Made by a program: the position numbers and the translations under genes. The notes under the pieces are model-generated. The model was not told the DNA's origin, did no database searches, and saw only the letters and a program-made list of their open reading frames with translations. This document shows, piece by piece, positions 15,688-20,519 of a stretch of DNA of 22,749 nucleotides (the stretch's first letter is position 1; each line of letters begins with the position of its first letter). The DNA is from a virus, in IMG/VR virus record IMGVR_UViG_3300020473_000130, positions 1 to 22,749 of that record; one strand, 5' to 3'.

Positions 15688-18312
15688 TTATAAACTTATC
15701 CCCAAGGTTTTAATTTTTCTCTGCGAATTCTTAGCAGATGCACTGAATGCAGGTATTTTCTTACCACTATTATCAGCAGGAGGTGTTGATCCACCTGGAA
15801 CTCCTCCAGGAATTGCAACTACTCTAACCTTTCCCCCAACTGGAGTTCCAGGTGGAGCAACATTGGAACCCATATTCTGCACACCAGACATCTTCAATGC
15901 ACTTTGAAGAACTGAACCACCAACATCACGAGATCTCTTAATAAGTTTACCAAGTCCTCTAATCAAACCACCACCACGATATCCTTGAACTAAACCACCA
16001 CCATTAAACGCTGGAACTAAACCACCACCAGCAAATCCTTGAACAAGACCACCACCATTATATCCCATACTATAACCCTTACTTGGATCAGTAATACCTC
16101 TTAATTGTAAATCTGCTTGGTGTGCTGCATCCCATTTAGCAAATGTTGCTTTTTGTGCATCACTATTCATAAGAATAGGTAAATACTGATCTAATGGCAT
16201 ATTTACTTTCTTATTTACGACATCCTGTATATTAATATTTTCATATCCAGGAACCTTATTAATCTCCCCAAGAAGTTGTCCCTGATGTTCCATTAAATCA
16301 GGAACACCAATAGAAGCTGTCATTTCACTAAACTTTTCATAAGATTTATCATCTACTATCTCACCATTTTTTGTCACAATTTTTTCTTCAAATTTCTCTT
16401 GGGAAACAACTAATGTAGGGGGATTTACTTGTCCTATCTGATATCCTTCTGTTCCATAATGAGATTTATCAAATGATTCTGCCTTACCGCCTCCACTATA
16501 ACGAGGCATCAAACCACTACCAACTTTACCACCCTTACCACCTTTCTTATCTTTCTTTTGAAGTGTTGGAATATTTGTACCACCAGCAGCAGCATTCATA
16601 CCTTCTAAAGTTTGTACACCATACTCTTGTACAGCACCCTTAGACATAACAAACTCACCAGGAGTTAGCATTGCAGGAACTGTATCCTTGTCTCCCGTTC
16701 CAGGAACTTCACCACCTTTATTCATACCCAATCTTCCTGTTTCTTTTTTAGTATCTTCTGCTGCTTGCTCAGTTTTTTTAAGATCTGGAGGTTGTTCTGA
16801 ATTCTGTTGTTTATCATCCAGTTGTGCTTTCAATTCACCATCCATTCCCTCTTCTAATTTCTCACTATCTTTAAGTGAATCAACCTCACCTTTCGCTAAT
16901 TCCTTATCAACTTTATCCCCAAACCCAAAGATCGATTTAACTGCATCAACTATTTTAGGTATACCCCATGATAATAATGCAATCGCTCCTGCTACAAATA
17001 TCATTCCTGGTCCAACAAAAGCCATAATACCAGCAACCAAAAGAGGCCACCAATCCTTAATAAACTTAAAGAGAGAAGAAACCTTGTCCTTATTTGTAGG
17101 ATCAGAGAACCATTCCCACAATTTAACTACAGTACTTCCAAATAAAATCGCAGTTAAAAAATTAACTATCTTATCCCATATACCCATCACTGGTTTGAGA
17201 GCCATCTGCCCTACTTTCTTTACACCACCCGCCATCTTCTCCAAACCACTCTCTCTTTTATTCCTCTTCTTATTCTCTTGACTCTTTCTTACAAATTCTG
17301 TTTGATCTTTACTAACTTCTGCTTGACCTATTAAAGTCTCTTTAATACCATCAACTGAAGATGAAATTGATTTGAGTATAGGTAACAATCCCTCCTGTGA
17401 TTTTTCACCATCTACTTCTGCAGCAACAGGAGTCTCTGCATCACCTGGTTTAAGATCATCAGGTTTTGCTAGTGGTTCGCCTTTAAATCTTCTTATTCTT
17501 TCTTCCTTACTTAGATATTCTCCCTTTTCATCTTGACCCATCACTCTTGATGCATACCCTTCATCAAATGGAGTTCCTTTTTTAAATGCACTACCAGGTA
17601 TATTTTTCTTTTTAATCTTTATCCTTGGTCTCTTTTTCTTTGACTTTGGTTTTGTCTTTGTAGAAACAGATTTATCTACTACATCAAATTTTGATTCTTC
17701 TCCAACAAACTCTTTCTCTTCATCCGTCATTGAGACCGAAGAGTTATATTCTTCTACTTCTTCAGGTGTTGCATGAGCAGCATCAAATTTTTCTTCTCCA
17801 CGTATATCATCTAAGACATCATCTAAACCTTCAGGTATCTCTCCATCCAATTCATCTTCTATTACTTCTTCTACTTCTTCTATTACTTCTTCTACCTCTT
17901 CTATTACTTCCTGTGCTGCTTGCTCTGCTTTCTCTGCTTCCTTTTTTGCTTGTTCTACTTCCTTTGCTGCTTCCTTTGCTGCTTGTTCTGCTGCTTGTGC
18001 TGCTTCTTGTTCTGCTTTCTTTGCTGCTTGTTCTGCTTCCTTCTGTCTTCTCAATGCCTCCCTTTCTGTCCATATTTCTACTCCTGTTTCTATATTAGAA
18101 ACTCTATTCTCAAGTCCAAGAACTCGTGCCAAAGTTTTCCTTTGCATTCCAAAGGACTTACTTATTGTCTTGTGTATTCCAGCAAATTCAATAGGAATAT
18201 TTTTTTCAAGGCTCTCAACTTTACCAGCAAGCTTCATATGAGGTTCGTGTTTCTCCCTCATAGACTGTATAAAGCCTCCTCCTGCATATGAATTTGGTCT
18301 TCCTTTAGGCAT
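15688..18312 (-). CDS. Tape-measure-like tail protein with coiled coil (874 aa)
   Basis: Residues about 84-155 form a highly charged coiled coil rich in Ala, Glu, Gln and Lys, with an acidic VIEEVEEVIEEVEEVIED repeat. A lysine-rich patch follows (KPKSKKKRPRIKIKKK). Two hydrophobic regions lie at about 380-402 (KIVNFLTAILFGSTVVKLW) and 419-449 (WWPLLVAGIMAFVGPGMIF, then AGAIALLSWGI). Near residue 537 is GDKDTVPAMLTPGEFVMSKG, a motif I know from tape measure and related phage tail proteins. The C-terminus carries four GGGL repeats (about 746-784). The ATG overlaps the end of the 60-residue gene by eight bases. Position directly after the gp26-family gene and its small partner matches tape measure placement after assembly chaperones in many tailed phages. 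It is longer than T4 gp29 (590) and shows no clear identity to it. Confidence 0.7.
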   Translation of the reverse strand: MPKGRPNSYAGGGFIQSMREKHEPHMKLAGKVESLEKNIPIEFAGIHKTISKSFGMQRKTLARVLGLENRVSNIETGVEIWTEREALRRQKEAEQAAKKAEQEAAQAAEQAAKEAAKEVEQAKKEAEKAEQAAQEVIEEVEEVIEEVEEVIEDELDGEIPEGLDDVLDDIRGEEKFDAAHATPEEVEEYNSSVSMTDEEKEFVGEESKFDVVDKSVSTKTKPKSKKKRPRIKIKKKNIPGSAFKKGTPFDEGYASRVMGQDEKGEYLSKEERIRRFKGEPLAKPDDLKPGDAETPVAAEVDGEKSQEGLLPILKSISSSVDGIKETLIGQAEVSKDQTEFVRKSQENKKRNKRESGLEKMAGGVKKVGQMALKPVMGIWDKIVNFLTAILFGSTVVKLWEWFSDPTNKDKVSSLFKFIKDWWPLLVAGIMAFVGPGMIFVAGAIALLSWGIPKIVDAVKSIFGFGDKVDKELAKGEVDSLKDSEKLEEGMDGELKAQLDDKQQNSEQPPDLKKTEQAAEDTKKETGRLGMNKGGEVPGTGDKDTVPAMLTPGEFVMSKGAVQEYGVQTLEGMNAAAGGTNIPTLQKKDKKGGKGGKVGSGLMPRYSGGGKAESFDKSHYGTEGYQIGQVNPPTLVVSQEKFEEKIVTKNGEIVDDKSYEKFSEMTASIGVPDLMEHQGQLLGEINKVPGYENINIQDVVNKKVNMPLDQYLPILMNSDAQKATFAKWDAAHQADLQLRGITDPSKGYSMGYNGGGLVQGFAGGGLVPAFNGGGLVQGYRGGGLIRGLGKLIKRSRDVGGSVLQSALKMSGVQNMGSNVAPPGTPVGGKVRVVAIPGGVPGGSTPPADNSGKKIPAFSASAKNSQRKIKTLGISL
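15957..16070 (-). repeat. Four GGGL(V/I) repeats at the tape-measure C-terminus
   Basis: The minus strand encodes GYNGGGLVQGF, AGGGLVPAFN, GGGLVQGY and RGGGLIRG in tandem, each about 9-10 residues. On the plus strand it appears as repeated aaaccaccacca units. Confidence 0.75.
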
Positions 18313-18487
18313 TAGATTTCTGCTGGTTCCTCTTTAGTTCTTCATCCTCAAGGTGTTGTTTTAATAAACCAACATAGATGTCTCGTTCCCAAGGCATCCA
18401 GTTTTCAATCTCTGTCAGGCTATATTTATGGTACTGCATCAAGGCAAAATTAAGTCTGAAATAATTTTCCAGACTCATGTATACCAT
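18305..18487 (-). CDS. Short tail-assembly-chaperone-like protein, possible frameshift extension of gp26
   Basis: The 60-residue product contains SLENYFRLNFALMQYHKYSL and IENWMPWERDIYVGLLKQHL, an all-helical pattern with a W-x-P-W-E-R-D-I-Y core. This is like the small proteins encoded between the chaperone gene and the tape measure in many tailed phages. T4-like genomes sometimes label this slot gp51, but I see no clear identity to T4 gp51. The first ATG (18487-18485) lies two bases after the gp26-family stop and has no good Shine-Dalgarno. A second ATG at codon 4 (18478-18476) has a weak GGGTAGG upstream. Its frame is exactly -1 to gp26 and is open back to 18514, past a slippery heptamer. 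It may therefore be made as a fusion, a separate protein, or both. Its end overlaps the tape measure start by eight bases. Confidence 0.65.
   Translation of the reverse strand: MVYMSLENYFRLNFALMQYHKYSLTEIENWMPWERDIYVGLLKQHLEDEELKRNQQKSNA
18453..18475 (-). other. Nine-pair hairpin at the start of the 60-residue ORF
   Basis: On the minus strand AGTCTGGAA, loop AATTA, then TTTCAGACT gives nine pairs including one G-T wobble. It begins immediately after the second ATG and 20 bases beyond the slippery heptamer. It could modulate initiation at that ATG or ribosome pausing. The distance exceeds the usual 5-9 bases for a frameshift stimulator. Confidence 0.45.
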
Positions 18488-18489
18488 GC

Positions 18490-19209
18490 CTACCCGAAAA
18501 AAGATGCTAATCCCTCAAGCACAACATCACTTTCAACTTTTGTTTCTGGATTTGTAACCTTAATAGTATGAGATAACTTAGGCATTGTTGTAAAGAACTT
18601 TTCAATCTCTTTGAATTGAGCAGAGTTCATCGACTCAAGGAAATCATTCATCTCTTTCTTAGTACAATCCTCAGAAGCCCACACCTCATCTTCTGTATAG
18701 ATTTTATCAATACATGATGCGATTAATTTAAAGGACTGATCTACCTGAGTAGTATCATTGAAATCAAAATTATTTTTAATAAACTCATCAAGAGATGGAT
18801 ACTTCATCTCCATCATAATCTTTTCATCAAGTTTAATCTTATTATTATGTTCCTCACTCTTCTGAATTTGAATATCATCAAGATTTATAGTTACAGGAAC
18901 ACTTGTCTTACCATCATCTGGACAAACAATATTAACTTCAAGATCTTCCCCAACAGATTTGCCTCTGATGTTTAAAAATAAAAATTCAATATCAAATGTA
19001 GGAAGTGTCTCAACCTTAACACCCTTCGTAAGAATACAATTCTTTAGAACAGCTTTAATAGCAGTAGTAATTTGTTTTGTATCTTCACTCTCTAAAGCAA
19101 TAACAAGTAACTTTTCTTCCTTAACTAAAAAGGGTCTGTACTCTACAGTCTTTCCTGTTGATGGCAACTCAAGTTCATAAGTTGGTGTGGCAATCTTTGG
19201 TAATGGCAT
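18490..19209 (-). CDS. gp26: gp26-family baseplate hub / tail assembly protein (T4_baseplate type)
   Basis: The 239-residue protein starts MPLPKIATPTYELELPSTGK and continues VEYRPFLVKEEKLLVIALES. It has a central block VCPDDGKTSVPVTINLDDIQ and a helical C-terminal half ending in FTTMPKLSHTIKV. This is the layout of T4 gp26-type hub proteins (T4_baseplate family; T4 gp26 is 208 aa) common in marine T4-like phages. In T4, gp26 is needed for hub assembly, and a chaperone-like role next to the tape measure is plausible. It lacks membrane segments and catalytic motifs. A TATAAATA late box stands 22 bases before the start. The last codons read GCA TCT TTT TTC GGG TAG and contain a -1 slippery heptamer. 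A frameshift there would replace the final glycine by Arg-Val-Gly plus the 60 downstream residues, giving about 301 aa. Confidence 0.75.
   Translation of the reverse strand: MPLPKIATPTYELELPSTGKTVEYRPFLVKEEKLLVIALESEDTKQITTAIKAVLKNCILTKGVKVETLPTFDIEFLFLNIRGKSVGEDLEVNIVCPDDGKTSVPVTINLDDIQIQKSEEHNNKIKLDEKIMMEMKYPSLDEFIKNNFDFNDTTQVDQSFKLIASCIDKIYTEDEVWASEDCTKKEMNDFLESMNSAQFKEIEKFFTTMPKLSHTIKVTNPETKVESDVVLEGLASFFG
18496..18502 (-). promoter_or_regulatory. Candidate -1 programmed frameshift site T TTT TTC
   Basis: The heptamer fits X XXY YYZ in the gp26 frame (last T of TCT, then TTT, TTC). A Shine-Dalgarno-like GAGGGA occupies 18511-18516, with eight bases between it and the heptamer, the arrangement that stimulates -1 shifting at E. 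coli dnaX. The zero frame ends at TAG 18490-18492. The -1 frame has a stop at 18515-18517 upstream, so the usable window is only about 25 bases and the heptamer lies inside it. Confidence 0.55.
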
Positions 19210-19250: not shown

Positions 19251-20033
19251 TTAGATAAGATTTGCAGCAATACTTCTAGCAACACCACCAATCAATTTAT
19301 TATCCAGATCAAGAGCTCTAAGTCCAGCATTAACTGCTTGGAATGCTTGGCCATTTAGATCTGCCTGTGTTCTTGGATCAAACATATCAAATAGACCACC
19401 TCTAGTATCTTCAATATAATATCTACTGTAAGTCATCGAGACTGTACACTTTAATAGATCAGATGCATCATAAGAAACTGGCATAGAGTTAATTGCTAAA
19501 GGAAATGTATTAACAAAACCATAAGCAAGGGGTTTTACTTTTCTTCTTGCGTTTATATTCTTTTCAAACTTTGTAACCTCTAAGGTTCCCTTATAATCAT
19601 TTGGGAATGATGCTCTATAAAAGAAGTTTTGTTTCTTTGTATTTCCAGTAAAATTATCATTAGCATTCTCATTCATTATAAATCTCATCCATGATTCAAA
19701 GAATCTAATTGGTAGATATTGATCAGCATCACAATAGAAAGTTAAATCAATACGATCATCATACATTCTACGATATGCATGTCTCTCTGTTACTCCAGTA
19801 AAATCACCTGTCAATTCAGTGGTTGCTAACTGAGATCCAGGTAAAGATGCTTCTGCACATAATAAATTTAATTGATCCTGTCTATAGTTTGTACTGTTCT
19901 GCCTTAGAAAAGAACCAAATTCTCCTCCTTGTGGTATCCCAATAGCAACTTGGAATTGTGATGTCTGAGCAGGATTCAATAAGTGTGCTTTGACTTCTGA
20001 TATAGTTCGTGCTCTTGGATGTATGGAAGCCAT
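19251..20033 (-). CDS. gp54: Tail-tube-fold protein, probable gp54 baseplate tail-tube initiator
   Basis: The 260-residue product has a beta-rich core typical of the gp19/gp54 tube fold: SQFQVAIGIPQGG, CAEASLPGSQLATTE, DRIDLTFYCDADQYLPIRFF, WMRFIMNEN, GTLEVTKFEKN, GFVNTFPLAINSMPVSYDAS and LLKCTVSMTYSRYYIED. After the fold comes a 45-residue helical tail (QAFQAVNAGLRALDLDNKL). A C-terminal extension beyond the tube fold is a feature of T4 gp54 (320 aa) rather than gp19 (163 aa). gp54 sits on the baseplate hub and nucleates tube polymerisation together with gp48. It is the first leftward gene, divergent from gp4 and gp48, and 41 bases before the gp26-family gene. A gp19-type tube subunit is the main alternative, but length and neighbours favour gp54. 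Confidence 0.65.
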   Translation of the reverse strand: MASIHPRARTISEVKAHLLNPAQTSQFQVAIGIPQGGEFGSFLRQNSTNYRQDQLNLLCAEASLPGSQLATTELTGDFTGVTERHAYRRMYDDRIDLTFYCDADQYLPIRFFESWMRFIMNENANDNFTGNTKKQNFFYRASFPNDYKGTLEVTKFEKNINARRKVKPLAYGFVNTFPLAINSMPVSYDASDLLKCTVSMTYSRYYIEDTRGGLFDMFDPRTQADLNGQAFQAVNAGLRALDLDNKLIGGVARSIAANLI

Positions 20034-20075: not shown

Positions 20076-20519
20076 ATGGGAGAAAGTATTAAAAGTAGGT
20101 ATAAACCTTCTAATCCTAAGAAATATCAAGGCAATCCCAATAATATTATCTGTCGTAGTAGTTGGGAAAGGAAGTTCTGTCAGTGGTGTGATAGAAATGA
20201 TAGTATAATTTCATGGGCTTCAGAAGAATTTTGTATACCATATGTTTCTCCAAAAGATAATAGAGTTCATAGATATTATCCAGACTATCTAATCAAAGTA
20301 AAAGAAAAAGATAATAAAATTAAAAGTTATGTTGTTGAAGTTAAACCAAAAAAACAAACCCTTCCACCTAAACCAAGAAAGAGAGTGACCAAATCATATA
20401 TCTACGAGTGTCAAACCTTTGCAGTAAACCAAGCAAAGTGGAAAGCAGCAGATGAATTCTGTAAAGATAATCAAATTGAATTTAAAATTATAACTGAAAG
20501 AGAATTAGGTATTAAGTAA
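20076..20519 (+). CDS. gp4: Head completion protein gp4, PD-(D/E)XK nuclease fold
   Basis: The 147-residue protein matches T4 gp4 in length and motifs: SRYKPSNPKKYQGNPNNIIC, RSSWERKF, IISWASEEFCIPYVSPKDNR and HRYYPDYLIKV. Putative catalytic residues of the PD-(D/E)XK/TnsA-like nuclease fold are visible: Glu31 in SSWERK, Asp70 in YYPDYL, and Glu88 with Lys90 in VVEVKPKK. The C-terminal part (KWKAADEFCKDNQIEFKIIT) resembles TnsA-like sequences. In T4, gp4 acts after packaging to complete the head before tail joining. It is the first gene of the rightward unit behind a TATAAATA box. Its stop TAA shares its final A with the next ATG (TAATG). All key residues appear present. Confidence 0.88.
   Translation: MGESIKSRYKPSNPKKYQGNPNNIICRSSWERKFCQWCDRNDSIISWASEEFCIPYVSPKDNRVHRYYPDYLIKVKEKDNKIKSYVVEVKPKKQTLPPKPRKRVTKSYIYECQTFAVNQAKWKAADEFCKDNQIEFKIITERELGIK

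Follow-up and report, generated by a model that had tools for sequence, protein, structure and literature searches.

The window analysed here is a 22.7-kb fragment (22,749 nucleotides) from an IMG/VR virus record, carrying a T4-like, cyanophage-type tail gene cluster in which a gene of the gp26 family is followed by a small open reading frame related to gp51 of phage T4. The question raised by this locus is whether these are two genes or the two parts of one. On the minus strand, the order is tail tube gene, gp26-family gene, 60-residue open reading frame, tape-measure-like open reading frame and then further tail genes. The tail tube protein gene (19251-20033, minus strand; PF23849, E 1.2e-20; phrog_45, E 2.7e-34) lies directly upstream of the gp26-family gene. 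On the other side, where the first-pass annotation had placed a tape measure gene, there is indeed an open reading frame of 874 residues (15688-18312, minus strand), the start of which overlaps the small frame, 8 nucleotides before the end of the latter. Its best profile match is of unknown function (phrog_35029, E 1.4e-58), and its assignment as tape measure rests on weak matches, the best with an E of 7e-6. In Rhizobium phage RHph_I1_18, a tape measure gene is annotated downstream of the pair, with one small gene between.

Two other genes of the cluster are worth recording. An 89-residue protein encoded on the minus strand at 11749-12018 matches the C-terminal motif of CP12 (PF02672, E 2.2e-7; phrog_2603, E 3e-19), a regulator of the Calvin cycle in cyanobacteria. 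For a metabolic gene, a tail gene cluster is an odd place. On the plus strand, at 20076-20519, a gp4-like head closure protein (phrog_218) has an N-terminal domain resembling the TnsA endonuclease (PF08722, E 2.6e-23).

The gp26-family gene (18490-19209, minus strand; 239 residues; PF12322, E 2.6e-77; phrog_150, E 9.4e-83) ends in GAG GGA TTA GCA TCT TTT TTC GGG TAG, with the stop codon at 18490-18492. The geometry described in the first-pass annotation is present in the sequence: the heptamer T TTT TTC (18496-18502, minus strand) is in frame just before the stop, GAGGGA (18511-18516, minus strand) precedes it with a spacing of eight bases, and the 60-residue open reading frame (18305-18487, minus strand) is in exactly the -1 frame relative to gp26. 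Because a TGA (18515-18517, minus strand) closes the -1 frame upstream, any shift is confined to the 25 nucleotides between it and the TAG. A tandem slip at the heptamer would join 238 residues to a 63-residue extension (Arg-Val-Gly plus the 60-residue frame; 18305-18496 with its stop, minus strand), giving the 301-residue fusion foreseen earlier. The 60-residue frame matches phrog_634, the baseplate hub assembly catalyst family of T4 gp51 (E 9.2e-27), and also positions 242-281, the last 40, of phrog_150, the gp26 profile itself, which shows that in some members the two parts share a single chain. We consider it very probable that the gp26-family gene and the gp51-like frame form one tail-assembly-chaperone gene, with two products made through -1 frameshifting at T TTT TTC.

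By itself, the heptamer was rejected as evidence: with nine copies of TTTTTTC where 8.7 would be expected, the window contains it at chance frequency, so its mere presence is not significant. Relatives were gathered from IMG/VR and from annotated phages, and the 302 junctions obtained were reduced to 237 distinct ones. An in-frame T TTT TTN is present in 233 of these, ending in C (180), T (31), A (21) or G (1), and it lies 7-13 nucleotides before the gp26 stop in 232 junctions; the lone outlier, RHph_I1_18, has it 34 nucleotides before. These sequences share ancestry and are not independent events, so the counts are given without a p-value; ACP17, phiM19 and Moby, which also have the heptamer, are outside the 233. 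Conservation extends to proteins with only about 22-30% identity to the gp26 of the window, from Vibrio, Stenotrophomonas, Aeromonas and Delftia phages. The codon preceding the Phe pair of the heptamer ends in T in all 233, while the residue it encodes varies (Ser, Asp, Asn, Ala, Gly or Thr). The first Phe codon is TTT in 233/233 (background 0.72) and the second is TTC in 180/211 (background 0.28). Other Phe-Phe pairs of the same genes are slippery in four cases out of 240, and TTTTTTN is found in frame at 17 of 50,955 other gp26 codon positions. Judged from these alignments, the position, phase and conservation of the heptamer are beyond chance.

The codons downstream of the gp26 stop also appear to be read in the -1 frame. 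The stop is separated from the usual ATG of the small frame by three codons, in which 52% of single-base codon changes are synonymous in the -1 frame versus 23% expected, with only 6-10% synonymous in the other frames; further into the frame, the values are 67% and 20%. This pattern points to purifying selection on -1-frame codons that starts upstream of the usual ATG. Comparative sequence shows one coding unit across the junction, with a conserved slippery site and conserved stimulators around it. The homologue alignment proposed in the first-pass annotation has therefore been made, with the heptamer, the -1 phase and a GAGGG-like element all kept despite codon drift; homologues with the frame in random phase or with no heptamer, named there as the refuting case, were looked for, and the frameshift interpretation emerges strongly supported by the comparative evidence.

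Upstream of the heptamer, predicted pairing to the anti-Shine-Dalgarno sequence peaks 6-9 nucleotides before it across 128 representatives, with a mean of -6.73 kcal/mol versus -5.49 kcal/mol in synonymous resampling (standard deviation of the means 0.13, a difference of about nine standard deviations). In the relatives a GAGGG-like element is conserved at this spacing of 6-9 nucleotides, bearing out the earlier likening of GAGGGA to the internal stimulator of dnaX. Its position and conservation suggest a stimulatory role.

A third element, absent from the first-pass annotation, is a conserved downstream hairpin. In 128 relatives, predicted structure exceeds that of dinucleotide shuffles, most strongly at +10 to +51 from the heptamer start (t about -9 to -12). 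The predicted hairpin of the window (18442-18491, minus strand), the strongest part of which is an 11-bp stem at about 18451-18477, has a folding energy of -17.7 kcal/mol (z -4.0), and none of 200 shuffles was as good. Among 77 close relatives, a 5-bp stem (stem A, GGTCC-ATAT-GGACC) shows compensatory changes in 5/5 pairs, with 44 double-changed cells versus 11.7 in shuffled data; 85% of its pairings hold, and at most 53% when the stem is slid. The window breaks part of stem A and folds a longer hairpin further downstream instead, the covariation of which is weaker than that of stem A. Other clades have stems of their own; that of S-H34 has 10 bp and that of S-PM2 about 14 bp, and in some, such as the Melnitz group, the hairpin is weak or absent. 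A single hairpin common to all relatives was accordingly rejected, as the stems differ by clade; consensus folding of the alignment gives four pairs only, at -1.36 kcal/mol. As with the upstream element, place and conservation are what argue for a stimulatory function of the hairpin.

Could the two frames nevertheless be separate proteins, the 60-residue one starting at its own ATG, through independent initiation or termination-reinitiation, with the heptamer incidental? Database records do annotate two genes, and a joined gene is annotated in none of the records examined, including the first 14 of the frameshift type. An in-frame ATG also follows closely 3' of the slip site in the window and in 146 of 227 relatives, and the gp26 stop is only a few bases upstream of it. 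However, the first 14 codons of the -1 frame contain no ATG in 81/227 relatives, and no ATG, GTG or TTG in 46/227; for relatives with no start codon, the sequences indicate that separate initiation cannot be the explanation. The Shine-Dalgarno-like element is about 25 nucleotides from the ATG, too far to serve initiation there, and separate proteins would neither preserve the phase of T TTT TTN nor place selection on -1-frame codons upstream of the ATG. Both domains, moreover, occur in one chain in T4 gp51 and in profile phrog_150. We therefore regard separate proteins as very unlikely, although the window has two in-frame ATGs in the 60-residue frame, from which some separate gp51 could also be made.

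Runs of six to eight T (eight in Melnitz) would be compatible with the frame being changed by transcriptional rather than ribosomal slippage. Most runs are six T followed by C, which is short for polymerase slippage, and the preference for TTC as second Phe codon breaks the run rather than lengthening it; nor would slippage of the polymerase need a conserved Shine-Dalgarno-like element and a conserved hairpin. This makes it highly improbable. A real frameshift might instead be regulatory, for instance yielding a low-abundance extension with no chaperone role, and not a G/GT-like pair. Against this stand the purifying selection on the -1-frame C-terminal domain and the fixation of that same domain in T4 gp51, which is essential for assembly yet absent from the final particle (PMC3004832), and we think a purely regulatory role improbable.

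For the chaperone gene with two products, we infer that frameshifting occurs, how often, and what each product does, as follows. Most ribosomes would stop at the TAG and release the short form, TAC-N, of 239 residues. A minority would pause at T TTT TTC, held by GAGGGA upstream and the hairpin downstream; the two tRNA-Phe would slip back one base and reading would go on in the -1 frame, giving the 301-residue long form, TAC-NC, which ends in the C-terminal domain of gp51. If the two act as gpG and gpGT of lambda do (PMC5009743), the short form would coat the tape measure protein, whereas recruiting tail tube subunits would fall to the C-terminal domain of the long form.

The predicted fold of gp26 is consistent with such a role. 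Its AlphaFold2 model (pLDDT 87) compares best, among solved structures, with the HK97 tail assembly chaperone (2ob9, Z 7.9, residues 1-86), then with 3fgx (Z 7.8) and YqbN (3klu, Z 7.2); these top three cover residues 1-96 and the following entry scores 4.9. Foldseek also ranks chaperones first, with E values of 0.47-4.4 that are not significant, so support for an HK97-chaperone-like fold of the N-terminal part is moderate. Searched by sequence with the gp26 profile, the solved structures yielded no relative. Together with the gene order and the colinearity of T4 gp51 with the fusion, the modelled fold favours the lambda G/GT comparison drawn in the first-pass annotation. As read from sequence, the locus belongs to the lambda G/GT type of system, here in a T4-like phage and with a signal like that of dnaX.

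In T4 itself, gp26 and gp51 are two separate, divergently transcribed genes. Both proteins carry PF12322, with the C-terminal gp51 domain in gp51 alone, and gp51 aligns across the junction of the predicted 301-residue fusion. T4 gp26 (L081, 3803-4429, minus strand; also L101) corresponds to the short form and ends at the equivalent Phe-Phe (EFFELL), encoded GAG TTC TTT, with the heptamer lost; TTC TTT looks like a relic of the former slippery site. An internal product, 26', is annotated in T4 as well. The window, by comparison, encodes one PF12322 protein in its 22.7 kb, with no separate full-length gene for the long form there. It is reasonably likely that the three-part, dnaX-like cassette is ancestral for chaperones across the T4 superfamily (here cyanophages and phages of Methylophilales, Pseudomonas, Stenotrophomonas, Aeromonas, Delftia, Acidovorax, rhizobia and Vibrio), and that T4 replaced it by gene duplication, with gp51 freezing the fusion and gp26 keeping the short form and losing the slippery codons. 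In these data, the frameshift signal is the rule in the wider superfamily and T4 the exception, with duplication as a plausible route.

Some phages depart from the pattern. The -1 open reading frame is missing from UPEC01, a close relative of T4. Ackermannviridae and some Vibrio phages keep the -1-frame extension, with the canonical heptamer absent. The gp26 genes of Vi01, KpS110 and JA15 end in GAA ATT TTC ATT TAA; the -1 frame of Vi01 and KpS110 has its first ATG 12 codons in, and the extension is unannotated in both. The other 3' end in the Ackermannviridae set (L309, L310, L311 and L099) is CAG GTT TTC ATC TGA, and its G GTT TTC resembles the slip site of T7 gene 10; several members of the set have no nearby ATG. 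The Ackermannviridae may use a divergent frameshift site.

These observations bear on annotation. In hundreds of genomes of marine phages, gp26 and 'gp51' are entered as separate genes, although a single gene giving two products is far more likely; labels that name a hub chaperone should read tail assembly chaperone. Public records also give unlikely names to genes 3' of gp51, such as a 2OG-Fe(II) oxygenase in S-RSM4 and an endolysin in P-SSM4 (3711 region of L085; L084); these names probably reflect domains inside tape-measure or tail proteins.

A review describes G-T frameshifting as conserved among long-tailed phages 'except T4' (PMC5009743). The first-pass annotation held that such a frameshift was not described for gp26 of T4-like phages, which goes too far: Vladimirov, Gautam and Davidson (2022), who assigned the T4-like chaperones, are cited for poly-T slippery sequences in the TAC-N genes of T4-like phages (in PMC12846349). 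The same work is cited for T4-like phages with separate short and long genes (in PMC10885494), and its title proposes a mechanism other than frameshifting. No account of a gp26/gp51 frameshift in cyanophages turned up in a search of the open literature, with subscription journals outside it; one may already be in print. The novelty is modest, and lies in the signal having three parts and in how widely it is conserved.

The signal of E. coli dnaX consists of an internal Shine-Dalgarno sequence upstream, a slippery heptamer and a downstream hairpin. The junction described here likewise has an internal Shine-Dalgarno-like element, a heptamer and a stable hairpin starting a few nucleotides after it; unlike in dnaX, the heptamer is of T rather than A, the predicted frameshift product is longer, not shorter, and the hairpin differs by clade. 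As with lambda gpG and gpGT, a short protein with a -1 extension is encoded between the tail tube and tape measure genes, tape measure identity resting here on the weak profile matches. The slippery heptamer of lambda is GGGAAAG, whereas here it is T TTT TTN, and compared with lambda, the Shine-Dalgarno-like element and the hairpin are conserved here. In lambda, the stop of the short form comes directly after the slip site (PMC5009743), and the same holds here. Unlike in T4, where the long form has its own gene, gp51, the long form here would be reached through the -1 frame. In Vandenendeviridae and Andersonviridae, such as Pseudomonas phage Adele, the tail assembly chaperones also have a T-rich slip site ahead of the tape measure gene, where a -1 frameshift is conserved (PMC12846349); there the motif is GTTTTT, the phage families are others and no stimulators are reported.
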